From assembly GCF_021504595.1 (NCBI RefSeq), contig NZ_JACSGT010000003.1, positions 248,001-312,000 of the forward strand: a stretch of DNA of 64,000 bases. The letters run 5' to 3'. Numbering within the stretch: position 1 is the stretch's first letter; each line of letters opens with the position of its first letter. The notes beneath the pieces are model-generated. The model worked only from the letters and a program-made list of their open reading frames with translations. It did not search any database and was not told where the DNA came from. Made by a program: the position numbers and the translations under genes. This document shows positions 5,472 through 39,845 of this stretch, piece by piece. This DNA comes from Chryseobacterium indicum. GTDB taxonomy: Bacteria; Bacteroidota; Bacteroidia; Flavobacteriales; Weeksellaceae.

Positions 5472-5804
5472 TTAATTAATAAAAATCTTCCTCCATTTCG
5501 CAACTGTATTACGGCTTAGATTAAAATGTTTTGCAAGAGTAATATTGTTATAATGATTCTTCTTCTGATAATCTAAAATTTTCAGTATGGTTTCCTTATC
5601 ATAGGATTTATGCTTCTGATTAAGTTTATTTATATGGTAATTACCCTTTCCAAATATAATTTTATTAATTCTTATTACATCTAATACCGTTAAATGATTC
5701 TGTAAAAGTGGTAAAATCTCTTCTTTTCTTTGAGGAAATTTTTTTTCCACTATATCATTATAAATCCGGTTATAATCAGGCTGTTCAAATTTTCCCATTT
5801 GCAA
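5472..5804 (-). CDS. Small helix-turn-helix protein, HTH2 of cassette A
   Basis: 110 residues with no signal peptide or membrane segment. The C-terminus is a clear helix-turn-helix (ITLAKHFNLSRNTVAKWRK), of the type seen in IS3 OrfA-like and regulatory proteins. The N-terminus has a conserved YxxIYxDIxxxKFPxxK block shared with the proteins at 19063, 25142 and 39073. It follows HTH1 by 64 nt on the same strand and probably shares its transcript. Such proteins are sometimes annotated as transposases, but no DDE nuclease domain is present. A DNA-binding regulator is my preferred reading. Confidence 0.75.
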   Translation of the reverse strand: MQMGKFEQPDYNRIYNDIVEKKFPQRKEEILPLLQNHLTVLDVIRINKIIFGKGNYHINKLNQKHKSYDKETILKILDYQKKNHYNNITLAKHFNLSRNTVAKWRKIFIN

Positions 5805-5868
5805 TATATTTAAGATTTAATTAGTTATTTATATTCTAAGTAATACAGTTTTGGTTATTCACATTCAA

Positions 5869-6321
5869 TTATACCTTTTTGTCAGAATATTGCATCTGAG
5901 AATACTTATTAATCCACTTATAAAGGGTATTTTTAGGAATTCTATATTCATCAATAATCTCTTTTTTATTTTTTTCCCCTTTTTCAATTAATTCCAGAAT
6001 AAATTCTATTATTTCTTTTGTATAGATGTTCTTACGAAATTGAGGAAGAGCTGAATTTTTATTATTTTTTGCAACACTACTTTGCGGAGGGGAATAAAGA
6101 ATCAAATGTTGAGTATATATTCTGAAAAAATCAAACTTTAATAATTTACTCCATTTGAGAAGCAAATCCGTTTCCAGACTTTCGGAAATATACATCATTT
6201 GTATTTTTTCCTCATCACAATCAAAAAAATTACAAATTCTGTCCAACATTATATCTTCATGCTCCAAAACTTTAGTTTTTATGAGTTGTCCTATATGTAT
6301 ATCTTTAAAATTAAATTTCAC
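5869..6321 (-). CDS. Two-domain helix-turn-helix protein, HTH1 of cassette A
   Basis: 150 residues. The N-terminal 75 residues look like an all-helical XRE/repressor-like domain (motif RICNFFDCDEEKI, then LLLKWSKLLKFDFFRIYTQH). A conserved YSPP linker follows, and the C-terminus is a transposase-type helix-turn-helix (KKEIIDEYRIPKNTLYKWINKY). The same architecture is found at 18624, 24663 and 39411, and broken at 22570. It lies between a surface-protein operon (upstream) and HTH2. Function unproven; DNA binding is inferred. Confidence 0.75.
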   Translation of the reverse strand: MKFNFKDIHIGQLIKTKVLEHEDIMLDRICNFFDCDEEKIQMMYISESLETDLLLKWSKLLKFDFFRIYTQHLILYSPPQSSVAKNNKNSALPQFRKNIYTKEIIEFILELIEKGEKNKKEIIDEYRIPKNTLYKWINKYSQMQYSDKKV

Positions 6322-18623: not shown

Positions 18624-19046
18624 ATGCAAATAGATTTTAAAGAAATAAATATAGGCATCTACATTCGCCAATGCATAACAGAAAGAGGTATAGAAATTTC
18701 AAGGATTTGCAACTTTTTCAAATGCAGCGAAAATGAAGTAAATGACATGCTTTGTAAGAAAAGTACAGATACTCAGACTCTTCTGCATTGGAGTAAACTT
18801 TTAGAGTATGATTTTTTCAGACTGTATACACAACATCTTATCCTGTACTCCCCGCCTACAAAAACCAGAAATCCTGAATATAAAGATACTCTTCCAAAGT
18901 TCAGAAAGAATATCTACACAAAGGAAATCATTGATTTTATTTTGGAAATACTGGAAACCGGGTATAAAACCAAAGGTCAGATTATGGCTGAATACGGAAT
19001 TCCCAAAACAACATTACATAAATGGATCAGTAAATACAAAAAATGA
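18624..19046 (+). CDS. Two-domain helix-turn-helix protein, HTH1 of cassette B
   Basis: 140 residues. The N-terminal repressor-like helical domain (FKEINIGIYIRQC, SRICNFFKCSENE, LLHWSKLLEYDFFRLYTQH) is followed by YSPP and a C-terminal transposase-type helix-turn-helix (IPKTTLHKWISKYKK). It is 151 nt after the surface gene and 16 nt before HTH2, so the pair is probably one transcript. It contains no nuclease residues. Confidence 0.8.
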   Translation: MQIDFKEINIGIYIRQCITERGIEISRICNFFKCSENEVNDMLCKKSTDTQTLLHWSKLLEYDFFRLYTQHLILYSPPTKTRNPEYKDTLPKFRKNIYTKEIIDFILEILETGYKTKGQIMAEYGIPKTTLHKWISKYKK

Positions 19047-19062
19047 CCTCTGAAAACTATAA

Positions 19063-19407
19063 ATGATGAAAAACGCAGCACAAATAAACTATAAAAAAAT
19101 TTATCAGGATATTCTTGAGATGAAGTTTCCGGAAAAGAAAGAGCAATGTTTCTCTGTTTTAAACAAGAAAGAACTTTCTATGCTGGATGTTATAGACCTC
19201 AACCAAAAAATATTCGGGAAATCTGATAAGCAGACCGACGTATTTAATCAGAGACATCGGTCTTACGACAAATCAGCTGTTTTAAAAATTCTGGAATATC
19301 AGACGGTAAATAATCTTAATAATTCTGAGCTGGCTAAACATTTTAAACTTAGCCGGAATACCATTACAAAATGGAGAAGGAATTATAGTGAGATTAAGGC
19401 TTTATAA
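19063..19407 (+). CDS. Small helix-turn-helix protein, HTH2 of cassette B
   Basis: 114 residues (113 from the second ATG at 19066). It carries the NYKKIYQDILEMKFPEKK block and the C-terminal helix-turn-helix (NSELAKHFKLSRNTITKWRR). The first half is almost identical in DNA sequence to the cassette E copy at 25142, while the second half diverges. The partner role with HTH1 is inferred from constant adjacency. Confidence 0.8.
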   Translation: MMKNAAQINYKKIYQDILEMKFPEKKEQCFSVLNKKELSMLDVIDLNQKIFGKSDKQTDVFNQRHRSYDKSAVLKILEYQTVNNLNNSELAKHFKLSRNTITKWRRNYSEIKAL

Positions 19408-22569: not shown

Positions 22570-22872
22570 ATGCAAACAGACTTTAAAGAAATAAATATAG
22601 GAATATACATTCATCAATGTATAAAAGACAGAGAAATGAATCTTTCAACAATCTGTAATTTTATGAAATGCAGCGAAGATGAAATAAACAAAATATACCA
22701 TCAGAAAAGCATGAATACTGAGACGCTTCTGCAATGGAGTAAATTACTGAAATATGATTTTTTCAGACCGTATATACGCTTATTTTATATTCCTCACTTA
22801 CAAAAACTAAAGACCTCCAATCTCCGAAAAGTATATATCACACAAGAAAACTCAACTAAAATAGTATTATAA
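22570..22872 (+). pseudogene. Frameshifted HTH1 gene, cassette C
   Basis: The first 71 residues match HTH1 (FKEINIGIYIHQC, LLQWSKLLKYDFFR). After FFRPY the frame is lost: the DNA that encodes YTQHLILYSPP in other copies is still recognisable but shortened, and only eroded traces of the next block remain. The C-terminal helix-turn-helix and the whole HTH2 gene are missing. The truncated product keeps only the N-terminal domain, so it is probably non-functional unless that domain acts alone. Confidence 0.75.
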
Positions 22873-24583: not shown

Positions 24584-24662
24584 TCTTTTTTTTGCAATAA
24601 TCTATTCCATATATGCATTGCTGATGCCTTTGTTACTGAGCATGAAAAATTATAAATACGGT

Positions 24663-25094
24663 ATGAAAAAAGATTTTAAGGAAATAAATATAGGGATATA
24701 TATCCATCAACGCGTAAAAGACAGAGGAATGGATCTTTCGAGGATCTGTAATTTTATGAAATGCTGTGAAGAAGAAATAAATAAAATGTATTCACAAAAA
24801 AGCATTGATACTCAGCTTCTTCTACGCTGGAGTAAACTTTTGGAATATGATTTTTTCAGAATCTACACGCAGCATCTTATTTTATACTCACCGCCTACGA
24901 AAGCAAAGGATTTAGAAAGAAAGAATCAGAATAAGGTAGTTCCCCAGTTCAGAAAGAATATCTACACAAAAGAGATCATAGATTTTGTATTGGAATTGCT
25001 GAAAACAAGACAGAAAACCAAAAATGAGATTATTACAGAATATGGTATTCCTAAAACCACTTTGCACAAATGGATAAGCAAATATGATATCTGA
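24663..25094 (+). CDS. Two-domain helix-turn-helix protein, HTH1 of cassette E
   Basis: 143 residues from the ATG at 24663 (MKKDFKEINIG), matching the start of the other copies; the upstream in-frame ATG at 24618 adds an unrelated stretch. N-terminal repressor-like domain (SRICNFMKCCEEE, LLRWSKLLEYDFFRIYTQH), YSPP, then the transposase-type helix-turn-helix (IPKTTLHKWISKY). It follows the glycosyltransferase and precedes HTH2 by 47 nt. Confidence 0.8.
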   Translation: MKKDFKEINIGIYIHQRVKDRGMDLSRICNFMKCCEEEINKMYSQKSIDTQLLLRWSKLLEYDFFRIYTQHLILYSPPTKAKDLERKNQNKVVPQFRKNIYTKEIIDFVLELLKTRQKTKNEIITEYGIPKTTLHKWISKYDI

Positions 25095-25141
25095 AAACAT
25101 CGTTTGCGAAACCCTGTATACAAAGATAAAAACGATAATTA

Positions 25142-25483
25142 ATGAAAAACGCAGCACAAATAAACTATAAAAAAATCTATCAGGATATTCTTGAGATGAA
25201 GTTTCCGGAAAAGAAAGAGCAATGTTTCTCTGTTTTAAACAAGAAAGAACTTTCTATGCTGGATGTTATAGACCTCAACCAAAAAATATTCGGGAAATCT
25301 GATAAACAAACGGATAGATTTAACCAAAGACACAGATCTTATGACAAACAGACGATTTTGAAAATTCTGGAATATCAGACGATAAATAATCTCAACAATT
25401 CTGAACTTTCAAGACACTTTAAGCTCAGCAGGAATACCATTACAAAATGGAGAAAGAATCAAGGCAATATCATGGATTTATAA
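25142..25483 (+). CDS. Small helix-turn-helix protein, HTH2 of cassette E
   Basis: 113 residues; the N-terminal half is the same as the cassette B copy, and the C-terminal helix-turn-helix (NSELSRHFKLSRNTITKWRK) differs at several positions. The DNA is nearly identical to 19066-19230 up to about codon 56, then diverges, which points to recent recombination between the two cassettes. Confidence 0.8.
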   Translation: MKNAAQINYKKIYQDILEMKFPEKKEQCFSVLNKKELSMLDVIDLNQKIFGKSDKQTDRFNQRHRSYDKQTILKILEYQTINNLNNSELSRHFKLSRNTITKWRKNQGNIMDL

Positions 25484-25583: not shown

Positions 25584-26225
25584 TTAAATTAAGGTATAAG
25601 CCCCAAGATACGCGCTGTTACACGCAAGCGTTTCTTTCGCATTCCTGAAAAACACCCAGACCTGAATTTCCTTTCCTGTGTAAGAAGCAGGCATCGTGAC
25701 ATCGGCAGTCAATGCTCCCCTTTCGGCAACAGATTCGAAAATTTCAAACGTTCCCAGTTCTTCGCAATAACACACCACATTGGCTTTGTCGGCGGTATCT
25801 GCATTTCCCTGTGCGGAATTGTCTTCCAAGCTCAGCGCAATGATATTTCCGGTCTGCGGAGCAGCAGTGACGTTCTGGAAACCTGCCAGATCACCTTTCG
25901 TGATCAGAACCTTATTGTATACCAGTTCGGGAACATCGCCATTCATCTGTAATGCTTCGCTGATGGTATAGGAAACCGCCATATTCACCCTCGATTTTGA
26001 GCCGCTCCCCGATCCGAAATACTTCGTCTGGATGTTTTTGAGCGGCTGCAGAAAGCTGATCACCATGCTGAATCTGGTCTGCTGCAGAAGCTGTTTATCG
26101 GTGGGCTGTTTCGAGCTTGGTTTGGGAATGCTTCTGATAATGTCCTGTCCGCGCCAGTTTGCGCCAACAATCGTTCCAACTTTTCCTGAAAATCCGCCAA
26201 GGATTCCTTTTGTTATTCGTGCCAT
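25584..26225 (-). CDS. DUF6266-family protein
   Basis: 213 residues from the ATG at 26225 (MARITKGILGG); an upstream ATG at 26234 would add three residues. The opening GILGGFSGKVGTIVGANWRG is the hallmark of DUF6266, a Bacteroidota family often present in many copies per genome. There is no signal peptide and no known function. The gene is preceded by a structured, repeat-containing element also found, without its gene, at 4982-5196. GC-richer than its surroundings, which fits transfer. Confidence 0.85.
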   Translation of the reverse strand: MARITKGILGGFSGKVGTIVGANWRGQDIIRSIPKPSSKQPTDKQLLQQTRFSMVISFLQPLKNIQTKYFGSGSGSKSRVNMAVSYTISEALQMNGDVPELVYNKVLITKGDLAGFQNVTAAPQTGNIIALSLEDNSAQGNADTADKANVVCYCEELGTFEIFESVAERGALTADVTMPASYTGKEIQVWVFFRNAKETLACNSAYLGAYTLI

Positions 26226-26430
26226 TTTGTGCATTTTTATTGGTTAACAGAACGAAGGTATTACAGAATTTTCCAATTTCAGGCACCTGTGAAAAAGATG
26301 ACCGGTTTTGACTGATTTTGACCGGTTTTGACCGGTTTGAAAACCCATTTCTTCGGATCATGTTCGGGTCTTCTTCGGATCGGCTTCGGAAAAATGGGAT
26401 TTTTTCCGAAGAAACACCGAACAACAGCCG
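26226..26430 (-). promoter_or_regulatory. Structured upstream element of the DUF6266 gene
   Basis: Contains four in-register 10-mers (TGACCGGTTT type) at 26299-26338 and a downstream hairpin whose inner arms (CTTCGGAAAAA and its complement) are intact, while the outer arms are degraded compared with the copy at 4982-5196. It is almost identical to that copy otherwise and reaches the start codon. Possible roles are a translational leader or a site for element mobility. Confidence 0.7.
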
Positions 26431-27168: not shown

Positions 27169-27411
27169 TTAACCACTTTTGGTCTTTAACTCTTTTGGAC
27201 TACTTGTCATTTCAAAAAAATAATCTGTAAGATTTCCTTCAACAGAAACTTTCTTGCCTATCAGGTTGTGTAATGTTTCATCGTAAAATGGGTTGCCCCC
27301 AAGCTTTTTCAGACGGTATTTATTTTCTCCAGTATCTATATAAATAGCACTATGCTCACTCTTAGATTCTTTACCAAACCTACCCTCCACAACTAAACCT
27401 TCCAATTTCAT
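27169..27411 (-). CDS. Small basic protein, last gene of the protease operon
   Basis: 80 residues, not matched to a named family. It reads as a small beta-barrel-like protein with motifs GRFGKESKSEH, LKKLGGNPF and LIGKKVSVEGN, which look conserved rather than random. No signal peptide. It starts 13 nt after the C25-like protease gene and so belongs to the operon; a role in inhibiting, delivering to or sensing for the proteases is conceivable but unsupported. Confidence 0.6.
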   Translation of the reverse strand: MKLEGLVVEGRFGKESKSEHSAIYIDTGENKYRLKKLGGNPFYDETLHNLIGKKVSVEGNLTDYFFEMTSSPKELKTKSG

Positions 27412-27424
27412 ATTTATATAAAAT

Positions 27425-28930
27425 TTATTTTCTGTGATATAATTTCCATCCTAACATTTTATCTCCATTCTCTTTTAGAACTAATACATTAAAGATACTA
27501 AAACTATTTGTTTTTTGTGGCTTTTGAATAAATACCCTATATATTATACTCTCAGTTCCACTAAATCCTTTAGCGAATGCATTAACTTTTTTATTTTTTG
27601 GCTCCACTTCATACACAATTTCTTTTTCTTCACCTGTAAATCCAGTTTGATCAAATATTTTCTTCAACTCATCATCAAGAGTTTTTTTATCTTTCAGTTT
27701 TGGTTGTACTATTTTTATTTCCTTTGAAGGAGCAAGAGTATCTGCAAGGTTCAGACCTTTATTAAATAAATTTAAACGTCTGTTCTCAACGGTACTTACC
27801 GAATCTAATTTTGCATCAACGGCAACCTGAATAGAAGGATCACCAAGTAAATAAAATTGTGCAAGAGTTTTTAATTCATAAGGGTCTAAATGAGGACCCG
27901 TGACAGAAAGAAATTTTTGTCTTGCCTCCAACAATGCTCTGCCCGTTGAAGCTCCGTTAATTACATTTTTCATAAAATATTGTGTTATCAAATCTGCCAG
28001 ACTATTACCCGAAGATGGACCATATGCAATAGTACTGCTCCCCATAAATGCAATGGCTTCATTTTTAAAATAGGCACTTGCAATGCTTATATTATGAGTT
28101 CCTTCATTACTGGGATCAAATACTTCTGCCCCAAAACAACATTCAGCCGCGACAACAGTCCCCTTTGAAATTTTCCCAACAAGGTCTGCCGAATATTGGG
28201 CTGTAGGGTAATTATTACCATTTTGTCCATAAAATTTGGAATCAATTGATGATCCGTGACAGTTGTAAAAATGCGTAAGTGGTTTTAGGTCGGTAGCTGA
28301 ATGGGGAGAATTTTGAGAAGGTGAGTTTTTAAGACTTGAACTGTTCCCAAAAATATTATTCAGACTCATTTGAGTAGATTTTTTCCATACTTCTGCTGTT
28401 ACAGAAAAATAGTCCATCAATTTTTCAGGTTTCACTTTTTTGTAACTGATAATTGCTTCAAAAATAATTTTCAGATAGCTTAAATCTGCAACTCCTGGAA
28501 TATCGGGTATTCTTCCGACTACTCTTGTAGGACCAATAAAGGAAGAAATATCTTTATTATATGCAGAATCGCAGGCATAAGGAAGGTCTGAAGGAATAAT
28601 TTTACCATCATCATCATTACATGGATTATCTATTTCCTGAAAGGGAAAAATATCCTGTGAACCAAATAAAACAATATATGCAGGCTTTAGTTTTTTGAAA
28701 ACATCATCTACAGATTGTTTTGCAGATTGTCGTGTTACAGATGTTACTGCGGTAATTCCTGCATTGGATGCCGAAATGGGATCATCAATATAAATTATAT
28801 ACGTTGTAATGCCTCGATTGCTATCAGATTTCACAAGTTCGCCAAGCATAGCTTCTACATCTCGAAATTGTGTATCATATTTAGATTGCAAGTTTTGTTT
28901 ACTAGTGATTATTGCTTTAATGGTTTTCAT
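27425..28930 (-). CDS. Cytoplasmic C25-like (gingipain/caspase-fold) cysteine protease
   Basis: 501 residues. No signal peptide. The core has the caspase-like alternation of beta-strands, with His225 in FYNCHGSS and Cys264/Cys265 in AAECCFGAEVFDP about 40 residues later, as in the gingipain (C25) catalytic dyad; GDPSIQ follows near residue 370. The C-terminal 120 residues form a separate lysine-rich domain. Secreted gingipain relatives have signal peptides and T9SS domains; this one has neither, so it probably acts inside the cell. Adjacent to a subtilisin-like protease gene (32 nt), which could process it or be processed by it. Confidence 0.8.
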   Translation of the reverse strand: MKTIKAIITSKQNLQSKYDTQFRDVEAMLGELVKSDSNRGITTYIIYIDDPISASNAGITAVTSVTRQSAKQSVDDVFKKLKPAYIVLFGSQDIFPFQEIDNPCNDDDGKIIPSDLPYACDSAYNKDISSFIGPTRVVGRIPDIPGVADLSYLKIIFEAIISYKKVKPEKLMDYFSVTAEVWKKSTQMSLNNIFGNSSSLKNSPSQNSPHSATDLKPLTHFYNCHGSSIDSKFYGQNGNNYPTAQYSADLVGKISKGTVVAAECCFGAEVFDPSNEGTHNISIASAYFKNEAIAFMGSSTIAYGPSSGNSLADLITQYFMKNVINGASTGRALLEARQKFLSVTGPHLDPYELKTLAQFYLLGDPSIQVAVDAKLDSVSTVENRRLNLFNKGLNLADTLAPSKEIKIVQPKLKDKKTLDDELKKIFDQTGFTGEEKEIVYEVEPKNKKVNAFAKGFSGTESIIYRVFIQKPQKTNSFSIFNVLVLKENGDKMLGWKLYHRK

Positions 28931-28962
28931 TGTATGTTTTTTTGATTTATAAAATTTTTCAT

Positions 28963-30645
28963 TTAAATATTTGAAGTTTCTTCTAGATATTTTTTTAAAG
29001 TAACTGAAGTTGAAGGATTACCGATAACAGCATCTCTGAATAATTTCCATTTCTTTTGGCTTATTTTATCATAGTCTCTTGTATCATCATCAATTAGTGA
29101 ACTCAATTCCGGACTGCTATATACAAGTTGTGATAATTCAGTATTAAACATATCTAAACGTGCATTTTGTTGTGAATTAGGCTTTGCCTTGAAAATAGTA
29201 TTAAGAATTGGAAACCATGGCACTTCATCTTCATTTGTTTTTCTGAGTGAAGAAGCAGATGGAACAGGGATTTTTAAGGCATCATTTGCTTTTATAATTC
29301 CGTTACCAAAGTACTCTGTAAAGTCAGCGTCATATTCATTGTTTACTTTTTTTAATGCTGACTTATATAAAGCGTTCCTAATTGCTTCTACTCTTTGCCA
29401 TTTTTGAGGTAATTGATTTAATTCCTGATGGTATTTGCGATAATAAATTGCTGCTGCCGCTGCAATTTGCGGTGTTGCTGATGATGTTCCTGCACCAGAA
29501 AATTCTATAGACCCCGATTCAACGCTCGCCCAAGGACTATTTGGCGTAAATGCTGAAAGAGCTTTTGACATATGCCTTTTGGGACCAAAGCATCCTTGCA
29601 TTTCATCTATTTTATTAGTTAAATAAGGTTTATTTTCAAATGTCACTCCACAAGCAGCTATTACTCTGCCAAATCGCGCAGGATATACCACATGCCTTGT
29701 CGGGAGTCCTGCAAAATTATTTCCTGCAGCCGTTACCAATGTTATTCCTGCTTCATAAGCGGCATTTACTGCATCAGCCCAAATTCTGGAGGGCGCTCCT
29801 CCCATACTCATGCTTACAACATGTACTTGTGTTCCGCTTAGCGAGAGCTGAGTCAAATAATCAAGAGCGTCGGCAAATGCATGAGTCTTGAATAAAACTA
29901 CACTTTCTGCAATTCTACAGCTTATTACTTCTGCAAAATATGCTGCTCCCAAATAATCATTAAATATACCATTGTCTGTTGAAATATTGATTTTTGTTCC
30001 TGCAAGAATGCCAAGTGTTCCTGTTCCGTGTCCTGGTTGTTTCATAAAGCCCTTTGTAAATGGGTCGTGTGCATCACTTGGATTTTCTCCATCAATAAAG
30101 TTACGCTGTAATGGATTTTTTCTTACGGACTCAGGAATTGCAAAATGAGTTTTGCTATAACCAGTGTCTATATGTCCGACTCTGATATTGAAATCAATAT
30201 TAGAAACACTATCTCTTGCTGATTTAAGTTGAGAAAAGTTGTCATCCAAATGCCAAATAATATTTTGATGGGGATACCAGTCAGGATCATAATTGTTATT
30301 TAACTTTCCGCTTCCAAAAGACTTTGATGAAAGTTTTTCTGCAGGAACATTAATTTTTCTTTCAACAACAAACTCATGCGTGAAGTTTGGCTCGATATAG
30401 CTTGCGTCTTTTTCCAAAGAATTGAGGGAAATATGAGCCATATCCCATGGATTTATTTCAGTATCTTTTGCATTTGTCTTTAAAACAATATTGGAGTTTT
30501 GTGACGCTAAGTTTTCAGAAGCGAATTCTGCTTCAATTCCGCCTTCTTTTAATTTTTTTGTTAAATCCTTTTGAGCTGACTTGCTTTGCAGAATTGCTGT
30601 TGGTCTTTTTACAATTAATTCTATGGGTTGATTATACTTTTTCAT
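28963..30645 (-). CDS. Cytoplasmic subtilisin-like (S8) serine protease
   Basis: 560 residues. The S8 catalytic triad is complete: Asp160 (GHIDTG), His206 (GHGTGTLGILAG) and Ser388 (GAGTSSATPQ), with the oxyanion Asn309 in TAAGNN. The N-terminal 150 residues may be a propeptide or a sensor. There is no signal peptide, transmembrane helix or T9SS domain, unlike secreted flavobacterial subtilases. It ends 32 nt before the C25-like gene and follows the lectin-fold gene by 14 nt, so the two proteases are co-expressed. A proteolytic cascade is the natural hypothesis. Confidence 0.88.
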   Translation of the reverse strand: MKKYNQPIELIVKRPTAILQSKSAQKDLTKKLKEGGIEAEFASENLASQNSNIVLKTNAKDTEINPWDMAHISLNSLEKDASYIEPNFTHEFVVERKINVPAEKLSSKSFGSGKLNNNYDPDWYPHQNIIWHLDDNFSQLKSARDSVSNIDFNIRVGHIDTGYSKTHFAIPESVRKNPLQRNFIDGENPSDAHDPFTKGFMKQPGHGTGTLGILAGTKINISTDNGIFNDYLGAAYFAEVISCRIAESVVLFKTHAFADALDYLTQLSLSGTQVHVVSMSMGGAPSRIWADAVNAAYEAGITLVTAAGNNFAGLPTRHVVYPARFGRVIAACGVTFENKPYLTNKIDEMQGCFGPKRHMSKALSAFTPNSPWASVESGSIEFSGAGTSSATPQIAAAAAIYYRKYHQELNQLPQKWQRVEAIRNALYKSALKKVNNEYDADFTEYFGNGIIKANDALKIPVPSASSLRKTNEDEVPWFPILNTIFKAKPNSQQNARLDMFNTELSQLVYSSPELSSLIDDDTRDYDKISQKKWKLFRDAVIGNPSTSVTLKKYLEETSNI

Positions 30646-30659
30646 AACTTATGATTAGA

Positions 30660-31040
30660 TTAATGTATTCGCATGATTGATAGTGAAATTTTTCCGAAGT
30701 TATTCCAATAAAACCCTTTTACATCATTTGCATAACAGAACAATCTGCCACTATGTTGAAATAAAATCTTGTTGTTTTTACCTATTAGAAAATCCTCTCT
30801 TTTATTTAAACTTCCTAAAAGCGCAAACCATTTATTCTTTCTTGAACGTTTGAAACAGTTGTATAAACTCATATACCAATTTGTATATCCGTCAGCATCT
30901 GTTTCCATCAAAAGATCTTTCCAATTTCCTTCCGCAGTGAATGTATACACTTCCCCTTCTTGGATTTCTACATCTATTTCATTCCAGTATTTTTCAGACT
31001 GAATGATAAATGATTTTGGTTGATTGATTTCTAATTTCAT
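30660..31040 (-). CDS. LecA/PA-IL-like lectin-fold protein
   Basis: 126 residues. It has the layout of the LecA (PA-IL) galactose-binding family: a first strand with EGEVYTFTAEGNWKD, FALLGSLNKREDFLIGK, SGRLFCYANDVKGFYWNN and a final strand ISLSIMRI. In the classical family a calcium site and ND motif bind sugar; here ND is present in YANDV. There is no signal peptide. It may be a sensor or binding module working with the proteases. Operon position is between the membrane protein (13 nt) and the subtilase (14 nt). Confidence 0.6.
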   Translation of the reverse strand: MKLEINQPKSFIIQSEKYWNEIDVEIQEGEVYTFTAEGNWKDLLMETDADGYTNWYMSLYNCFKRSRKNKWFALLGSLNKREDFLIGKNNKILFQHSGRLFCYANDVKGFYWNNFGKISLSIMRIH

Positions 31041-31053
31041 ATTACTAATCTTA

Positions 31054-31614
31054 TTAAAATATATACATCATACCTTTGTTATCTCCTTTCATTGGCTCTG
31101 CTCCTACCTTTTCACCTGATGAATCAAACTCTAATTGTGTGATTTTAAAAATTTTTCCGTTTTCAGAAAGTTCTCCCTTTTTATTAATTATATCGAATAA
31201 AACACCTGTATGGATTTTTAATGACTTTTTTGGAATTGTTCCGTCTTCGTGGAATTCATTTATACTAGGCATTTTAGTGGTAAGCTTAGAAATGATTGCT
31301 TTATTGGGAGGAATAACAATAGGACCTATACTTTCATTACTCAAAGATCCTCCTCCATTATTTAAATTATCAGAAAAAATAAACCGCCCTGAATAAACTG
31401 TTTCATATGATCTACCTGAATTCACAATCAGAATTGTACAGCTCAACGAGTCTTTAGCTGGTTCTATACTAACAACTGATACTTTCAAATCATGCTGATG
31501 TAAAAAATTATTCTCTATAAAAGCATAAGCTGACATTAAGAAAGCAATTATTGAAATGCATAAAGTGAGAATATCCTTTGTTTTTAGATTATTATTTTGT
31601 GATTCTAATGCCAT
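31054..31614 (-). CDS. Membrane-anchored protein, first gene of the protease operon
   Basis: 186 residues. A single hydrophobic helix (about residues 15-35, ILTLCISIIAFLMSAYAF) is followed by a beta-rich domain of about 140 residues that contains SCTILIVNSGRS and IVIPPNKAII. Family not recognised. It might tether the system to the inner membrane or be a target or effector there. First in the operon; the promoter should lie at 31615 onwards. Confidence 0.65.
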   Translation of the reverse strand: MALESQNNNLKTKDILTLCISIIAFLMSAYAFIENNFLHQHDLKVSVVSIEPAKDSLSCTILIVNSGRSYETVYSGRFIFSDNLNNGGGSLSNESIGPIVIPPNKAIISKLTTKMPSINEFHEDGTIPKKSLKIHTGVLFDIINKKGELSENGKIFKITQLEFDSSGEKVGAEPMKGDNKGMMYIF

Positions 31615-31744: not shown

Positions 31745-32690
31745 ATAAAATTATTATATAATTTCTCGACAATCAATAACCCTTTTGTGTTATATATACT
31801 CAAGTTGTTTAAACATTTAATTTTTTTGATTAGTCTTAAAGAGAACGCCAAAAAGTACAGATTTTTCCATGTAATATCTACTGTTTCAAATCTTATAAGC
31901 AAAGCCCTGAAGCCGGCTAGCCAAGCATTTGCCTATTCTATTTTAAATCTACTTTCGTACAATTTTCATCAAAATAATGATCATTATCTACTGTTTTTCC
32001 ATTGCGGGGATTGATTTTGATATTGCCTATTATTTTTTATATTTCTAATTTTTGCCTTAAATTTTCACTGTCAAATCCCGAATCTGCATTCAAAAAAAGA
32101 CCTTTATGAGAGATTTCCGCTTCGGACAAAATTTCAATGATCTCGCCCTATAGTGTCTTTTATTTCATATAAATCGTGATGATTGCAATTTCTGGGATCT
32201 CCAATCGAAAGCATTTGACCGCGATTGTCACAAAGAAAAATCATATTGCTGGTTTTCGCATACTTTCTGATTTGATACCCTGTTGATTCTCCGCCTATTC
32301 TGCAATGAGTTTGGCTTCCTTCTGTCGAGCTAAACACACGACATATCCAATAACCTTTTGTTACACTTCAAATGCTGAACCCAAATATTCCTGAAACTGC
32401 CGTCCTTGCTCCGTTTATTAAAAAAATAATACCACATTTTGAGAACTTATTTTTTCTTCCCTGAAATTTCTCTCCACTGACAGCCGATTTTCAGCCGTTT
32501 TGTAATGGTTTGAATTATTTTTACCAGATCAAACTTAGTAGAAAATCCTCTTTTCCCTTTGCTTAAATGGGGTAAAATCCATTTCTTTATTTTATCATTT
32601 CCTAATGATTTCCAGATTATTAATCTTTTTAATTGCAATCCAAAATTGCTGATTTTCTCGGAACTTTTTTCTCTAAATAAGTTTAAACAA
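31745..32690 (-). pseudogene. Decayed IS5-type transposase gene
   Basis: On the minus strand, pieces of an IS5-like transposase can be read in several frames: KKWILPHLSKGKRGFS at the N-terminus (32447-32638), a middle part with GSQTHCRIGGESTGYQ and NCNHHDLYEI (32134-32337), GLFLNADSGFDSENLRQ (about 32040-32100), and near 31900 the end RFKIE-stop-ANAWLAGFRALLIRFE. At least one in-frame stop (at the R codon after KIE) and frameshifts interrupt it. It marks an old insertion directly upstream of the protease operon. Confidence 0.75.
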
Positions 32691-34302: not shown

Positions 34303-35767
<1,465 letters not shown>

Positions 35768-39072: not shown

Positions 39073-39435
39073 TTACTTTTCTGTAAATTTAACATTATCA
39101 ATAAATCCTAATTTTTTCCATTTTGCAACAGTATTTCTGCTTAGTTTAAAGTGTCTGGCTAATTGTGTATTATTTAGTTCATTTTCTTTCTGATACTTTA
39201 GAATGTCTAAAACATCCATCTTTGTATAGGAACGGAATTTCTGATTAAACTTTTCTGAAAATTCGTTCTCGCTTTTAAAGATTATCTTATTCAGTGTCAA
39301 TATATTTAAAACTGATAATTCCTCCCGATCCAGCAACTTTCTACAGGCTTCCATTTTATGTGGATATTTTGTGTTTATAAGATCTTCGTAAATTTTTTTG
39401 TAATCCGGTCTTACTTGCAATATTTGCTTATCCAT
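39073..39435 (-). CDS. Small helix-turn-helix protein, HTH2 of cassette F
   Basis: 120 residues with the YKKIYEDLINTKYPHK block and helix-turn-helix (LNNTQLARHFKLSRNTVAKWK). It overlaps HTH1 by 25 nt, tighter than in the other cassettes, which strongly suggests translational coupling and a joint function. More diverged than the B/E copies. Confidence 0.8.
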   Translation of the reverse strand: MDKQILQVRPDYKKIYEDLINTKYPHKMEACRKLLDREELSVLNILTLNKIIFKSENEFSEKFNQKFRSYTKMDVLDILKYQKENELNNTQLARHFKLSRNTVAKWKKLGFIDNVKFTEK

Positions 39436-39845
39436 TTGTACAATGTTGTTTTTGGTATTTTGTATTCCTCTACGATCTGGCTTTTAGTTTTGGTTCCATT
39501 CGATATCTGCTCCAAAATAAAGTCTATTATTTCCTTTGTATAAATATTCTTTCTAAACTGAAGAGATTTTGAATTTCTGCTTTTCACCGCACAGTTAAGG
39601 CTTTTGAGAGGGGGTGAAAATAATATTAAATGTTGGGTATAAATCCTAAAAAAATCATGCTTCAATAATTTACTCCATCTTAACAATATTTTAGTATCAA
39701 GGCTTTCAGAATTATACATTGTAAGTATCTCTTCATAACTGCAACCCAGAAAATTGCAAATACGTAATACTTCAATATCACACTCTTTTACCTTCTCACT
39801 AATCAGCCTCCCGATATGAATCTCTTTAAAATTTTCTTTTTCCAT
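39411..39845 (-). CDS. Two-domain helix-turn-helix protein, HTH1 of cassette F
   Basis: 144 residues: FKEIHIGRLISEKVKECD, RICNFLGCSYEEI, LLRWSKLLKHDFFRIYTQH, FSPP, then the C-terminal helix-turn-helix (IPKTTLYKWISKY). It lies 70 nt after the stop of the giant surface-protein gene 39916, repeating the surface gene-HTH1-HTH2 order. Confidence 0.8.
   Translation of the reverse strand: MEKENFKEIHIGRLISEKVKECDIEVLRICNFLGCSYEEILTMYNSESLDTKILLRWSKLLKHDFFRIYTQHLILFSPPLKSLNCAVKSRNSKSLQFRKNIYTKEIIDFILEQISNGTKTKSQIVEEYKIPKTTLYKWISKYCK

Follow-up and report, generated by a model that had tools for sequence, protein, structure and literature searches.

The window analysed here, a 64,000 nt stretch of Chryseobacterium indicum DNA, contains five closely spaced genes, two of which encode proteases, and the locus raises the question of which of these genes belong together and what the proteases do. 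The original prediction described an operon pairing two cytoplasmic proteases with a lectin-like protein and a membrane protein, and likened it to programmed-death and antiphage systems. Our check of the open reading frames bore out the five genes and their spacing (Table 1): the order on the minus strand is 186-aa protein, 126-aa protein, S8 protease, C25 protease, p80, with gaps of 13, 14, 32, and 13 nt. Promoter and terminator scans gave site numbers similar to those in shuffled sequences, and an Rfam scan found no family at its threshold.

Table 1. Genes of the operon and their positions in the window
Feature	Coordinates	Strand	Remarks
Protein with one N-terminal membrane segment, 186 aa	31054..31614	-	Hydropathy
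PA-IL-like protein, 126 aa	30660..31040	-	PA-IL match weak
S8 subtilisin-type serine protease, 560 aa	28963..30645	-	Asp160, His206, Ser388
C25 (gingipain-type, caspase-fold) cysteine protease, 501 aa	27425..28930	-	His225, Cys264/Cys265
p80, predicted OB-fold partner, 80 aa, loop Lys17	27169..27411	-	Directly 3' of C25

Products of the five genes

Both protease assignments held. C25 matches Pfam Peptidase_C25 (PF01364) with an E value of 1.2e-9 (38.3 bits, cut-off 23), its predicted catalytic residues His225, Cys264, and Cys265 are invariant in an alignment of 20 sequences, and the motifs NxHG and ECC[YF]G are present in C25 from all of the 87 loci that we compared. S8 matches Peptidase_S8 (PF00082) above the cut-off (E 5.4e-20), and its full triad is invariant among 10 aligned sequences. 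Neither protease has a strongly hydrophobic N terminus, and none of the 80 matches to T9SS tails in the genome lies within the operon, in keeping with the prediction that both enzymes lack a signal peptide and a T9SS domain. The prediction of two cytosolic proteases in one operon was right, and C25 is apparently not exported. No convincing sequence relative of C25 was found in the PDB. The protein is modeled with the gingipain catalytic fold. The model aligns to the RgpB catalytic domain from model residue 3, so that a prodomain in cis would not fit; past approximately residue 396 it lies outside the matches to the gingipain fold.

The other three proteins have no Pfam match above cut-off. NCBIfam returned only subthreshold subtilisin-type models for S8, one chance-level match for the 126-aa protein, and nothing for p80. 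The 186-aa protein contains the only strongly hydrophobic segment among the five (19 residues starting at residue 15, with a mean hydropathy of 2.41), as expected of the membrane protein that had been predicted. Its place as a conserved part of the system was not supported: none of the six relatives that we found matches any of the 120 C25 relatives listed in the length of the longest contig. For the 126-aa protein we found 12 relatives, four of which match C25 relatives both in that length and in source (P0122/P0003, P0123/P0015, P0124/P0005, and P0128/P0002); in one such pair the locus tags, IT272_13685 and IT272_13695, leave space for one gene, presumably S8. The gene therefore seems to be linked to the operon in close relatives, and it is a feature of these, because phmmer (E 0.1) found no relative of either the 126-aa or the 186-aa protein in the 87 loci. 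As for the LecA/PA-IL-like fold originally assigned to it, the PA-IL match (PF07828) is weak and occurs in 2 of the 13 members of its family (best E 0.014), and a comparison of the family with PDB sequences gave no PA-IL match and none that was convincing.

C25 and p80 are paired in unrelated genomes

C25 was found in 1 of 296 genomes of a family sample and in 2 of 296 of a phylum sample; in the latter, one genome of the 296 had an S8 match at E 1e-20. A search of 5.8 billion proteins gave at least 2,730 C25 relatives among the 8,000 candidates scored, of which 120 were listed. Ten plasmid records, all alphaproteobacterial by name, carry a relative, and seven of these were taken into the locus set; a genome scan gave 102 relatives, from which 80 loci were kept.

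Using a profile built from the window and the plasmid loci, we found a p80 homolog just downstream of C25 in 83 of the 87 loci; the other four (L058, L059, L085, and L088) had none, even with a broader profile and with filters off. In 80 of the 83 loci the estimated start of p80 falls in a range from 14 nt before the end of C25 to 58 nt past it (at −14 in 39 of them). The remaining offsets are 81, 190, and 255, the first of which reflects a poorly chosen start in L083, where an alternative in-frame start directly adjoins C25. By their record labels, the p80-bearing loci come from Bacteroidota, Ignavibacteria, Chlorobiaceae, alpha-, beta-, and gammaproteobacteria, Desulfobacterium, Desulfobacteraceae, a deltaproteobacterium, Myxococcota, Holophagaceae, and two actinomycetes, although many are metagenome bins whose labels may be wrong (one reads Klebsiella pneumoniae and one Kuenenia). 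Isolates with the pair include Chitinophaga, Agriterribacter, Pedobacter, Roseateles, Sphingomonas, Bradyrhizobium, and Streptosporangium. Because the order recurs in unrelated genomes, it is beyond chance.

In 40 whole genomes, all picked from loci already known to carry p80, there were 41 p80 matches and 42 C25 matches, two of the latter being pieces of one gene in a single genome (G610); this makes 41 genes of each kind, and by coordinates every p80 gene adjoins a C25 gene. In the phylum sample the p80 profile matched 5 of 296 genomes at E 0.01. The window's own genome and G544 also have C25, two cases are borderline, and the match in G466 is to a diverged relative (E 1.2e-7; locus L093, 1468-1719) in a genome that gave none for C25 at 1e-20. 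This diverged relative adjoins a transposase-like ORF. The distance matrices of p80 and C25 are correlated, with r of 0.84 for 82 pairs and 0.54 after thinning to 40, against at most 0.19 in 2000 permutations, and mean identity is 34% for p80 and 39% for C25. The most constant partner of C25 is thus p80, to which the original prediction gave no special weight beyond its membership of the operon. The recurring neighborhood sought from the outset is C25 with p80, joined in a subset of loci by S8 and not by the 186-aa membrane protein.

That subset comprises 10 of the 87 loci, in which S8 lies directly upstream of C25 (L009, L010, L013, L014, L016, L050, L061, L077, L078, and L084). In three of them (L077, L078, and L084) S8 is only 22%–23% identical to that of the window, which indicates that the association is old or has arisen more than once. 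At E 1e-40 the S8 profile gave 15 matches in the 40 genomes. The eight strongest (E under 1e-180, full length) all adjoin C25, and the other seven are partial and weaker, in longer frames (628–961 aa) away from C25. Two Bradyrhizobium loci (L007, 5863-6825, and L086, 8815-9780) have no S8 there and carry a gene for a trypsin-type protease about 170–215 nt upstream of C25, possibly an exchange of the second protease.

Proposed role of p80 and rival explanations

Structure prediction gives p80 an OB fold (pLDDT 80.7), and a fold comparison ranked a KLIKK-associated potempin at the top. By profile, no convincing relative of p80 was found among PDB sequences, and no potempin at E values up to 10. 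The most conserved residue is a basic one in a loop, present in 84 of 84 sequences (Lys in 83, Arg in 1); the motif around it is GSKSE, which reads ESKSE in the p80 of the window, where the lysine is Lys17. In models, p80 docks on C25. The loop block is poorly ordered in p80 alone (pLDDT 59) and better ordered in the model of a fusion (77 and 80), which is a different protein.

On balance, we consider it probable that C25 is a cytosolic protease co-encoded with its own regulator, p80, which binds it and holds it inactive. The mechanism that follows is one that we infer; this applies to inhibition by p80 and to the proposed roles of Lys17 and S8, as well as to the Lys/Arg specificity, the signal, and the target. 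C25 starts at its catalytic domain, with neither a latency prodomain nor an export signal, and p80 would bind it and keep it inactive in trans, most likely with Lys17 of its flexible loop entering the S1 pocket. Gingipains cleave after Arg or Lys, and the prodomain of RgpB inhibits the enzyme by Arg126, which is pushed into S1 (PMC4357240). It is this precedent, together with the invariant basic loop residue of p80 and the lack of room for a prodomain in cis, that leads us to propose p80 as a prodomain acting in trans. Loss or cleavage of p80 would then free C25 to cut after Lys/Arg. Where S8 is present, its adjacency makes it the best candidate for a trigger that cleaves p80 or C25, or else it may act in parallel as an executor; the membrane protein and the PA-IL-like protein may be clade-specific inputs or anchors.

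Strict pairing and conservation would suit any obligate subunit, and many OB folds bind other molecules. p80 could therefore be a positive partner of C25 (a substrate adaptor, a folding chaperone, or an activator), and the pair a dedicated processing protease that is not restrained. Possible substrates are found in five alphaproteobacterial loci (L002, L003, L005, L007, and L069), which have a common block of genes around C25-p80 with ferritin-like, radical SAM, and tryptophan halogenase genes annotated in some of the records; three of the five hold a common ferritin-like cluster. Most neighborhoods, however, have no substrate gene in common, the invariant basic loop residue is suited to mimicry of the cleaved residue, and the latency of a C25 without a prodomain is left unexplained. 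We regard a positive partner as unlikely.

A bolder form of control by p80, which we hold to be decidedly unlikely, is a self-contained death or dormancy cascade. S8 would sense a signal through the clade-specific lectin-like and membrane parts and destroy p80, the freed C25 would cut many cytosolic proteins after Lys/Arg, and the genes would have been transferred across several phyla. If true, this would be a caspase-like execution pathway with zymogen control by a separate, prodomain-like protein.

A small immunity gene is often found directly 3' of an effector gene, as p80 is of C25, and the two could be such a pair, with C25 delivered by a contractile injection or type VI system and p80 as the immunity protein. 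In L012 and L071, C25-p80 has genes of contractile systems within 10 kb, and at least one gene from seven clusters of type VI-related look is present in 17 of the 30 Chitinophaga loci. When six of these clusters were compared with Pfam, three matched such systems, one matched only a ClpB-type ATPase, and two matched nothing. The genome of the window has TssD genes, though on another contig than the operon. However, the type VI-like clusters are missing from 13 of the 30 Chitinophaga loci, so the linkage there looks local. Orphan immunity genes are common, whereas the 40 genomes, all picked from p80-bearing loci, held no orphan p80; nor is p80 fast-diverging relative to C25. Some linkage thus exists, but it is probably local, and we think it very unlikely that C25 is such an effector.

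An antiphage or programmed-death system, with proteases unleashed by infection, is improbable to the same degree: the only PADLOC match for the five proteins is not convincing (IetS on S8, E 0.0034, 13.7 bits, 75 residues), no sensor is recognized, two viral-contig scans and one phage search gave no relative, and no defense island is evident around the relatives.

For the last of these points we took 136 proteins encoded near C25-p80 in loci outside Chitinophaga (51 of 57), reaching out on either side to about 2.6 kb and two called genes. All 10 S8 genes and a 1160-aa ORF of L087 were excluded, and two ORFs were added by hand; gene calling was crude in GC-rich loci. The best 25 families are listed where the totals were 81, 76, and 64. 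Among listed Pfam families, the commonest in neighbor set A5 were ferritin-like (4 members) and formyltransferase, alanine dehydrogenase, NamZ, and acetyltransferase (3 each), and in set A6, EAL/GGDEF (6) and DUF883 and glyoxalase (3 each). PADLOC gave 15 families with one member each in A5; among the best 25 of 64 families in A6, PsyrT and ShosT had three members each, and helicase-type and other models had one each. Among the PADLOC families listed, each strong match was to a single neighbor. Remains of mobile elements do occur near the operon, as predicted (a DUF772 transposase at 34412-35758 and a weak IS4/5-type match at 32447-32638), but their reading as the sign of a defense island is not borne out by these neighbors.

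Comparison with known systems

C25 has in common with the gingipains RgpB and Kgp the family profile, the catalytic His-Cys, and the modeled fold. The gingipains studied to date are secreted virulence proteases with built-in prodomains, whereas C25 has no prodomain, export signal, or T9SS tail, and its partner is encoded in trans. The KLIKK proteases of Tannerella forsythia, which are metallo- and serine proteases, have beside them the potempins, small OB-fold proteins as p80 is predicted to be. The literature describes potempins as lipoproteins whose genes precede that of the protease (PMC7296668); p80, in contrast, comes after its protease, has no hydrophobic N terminus, and showed no sequence relation to them in the PDB profile search. 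A cysteine protease with a co-encoded small inhibitor is also found in the staphopain/staphostatin, SpeB/Spi, and Bacteroides C10/Bfi pairs, with which C25 and its candidate inhibitor can be compared. Those proteases are papain-like and exported, whereas C25 has a caspase fold and is apparently not exported. The cytoplasm is the presumed site of action of staphostatins and Spi (PMC3462683), and staphostatins resemble lipocalins according to the title of a reference therein. Operon-encoded inhibitors of bacterial proteases are thus a known theme (PMC7296668; PMC3462683). CHAT proteases (Craspase) have CRISPR and TPR parts that are absent here, and the modeled C25 fold is much closer to that of gingipains. 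Bacterial gasdermin operons encode a pore-forming gasdermin beside the protease; none was recognized among the five proteins by Pfam, PADLOC, or NCBIfam, as had been noted at the start.

C25 belongs to a known family, but the C25-p80 pair looks undescribed, since no paper on it was found in the open-licence literature, in line with the original suggestion of an undescribed system. It is noteworthy for the range of bacteria that carry it, the strictness of the pairing, and a mechanism that can be tested. Many environmental bacteria have the gingipain catalytic fold, as modeled, in a cytosolic enzyme whose latency has apparently passed to a small protein encoded separately. If our reading is right, two genes suffice for a clean form of control over a protease, p80 is a natural candidate for an inhibitor of gingipain-type enzymes, and the pair is a well-defined candidate for a response to stress or conflict by proteolysis.

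Other genes near the pair and elsewhere in the window were also noted. A gene cluster (c46), which we take to be of DUF2235 type, occurs near C25-p80 in L009, L010, L012, and L071, and L012 and L071 have a phage-sheath-like gene. Two Rhizobium plasmid loci (L004, 10960-14662, and L008, 1596-9286) carry caspase-family, chitosanase, and L,D-transpeptidase genes near C25-p80, and L008 also carries a Rap1a/Tai-type immunity gene. In the window, a DUF6266 gene (PF19781, E 4.1e-32; 25584-26234) lies on the same strand just downstream of the operon. Pairs of small genes that resemble one another (about 140–158 and 110–120 aa) recur at 5472-6321, 18624-19407, 22570-22872 (truncated), 24618-25483, and 39073-39845; one copy gave nothing convincing in Pfam, and the pairs adjoin genes of secreted or surface-type look.
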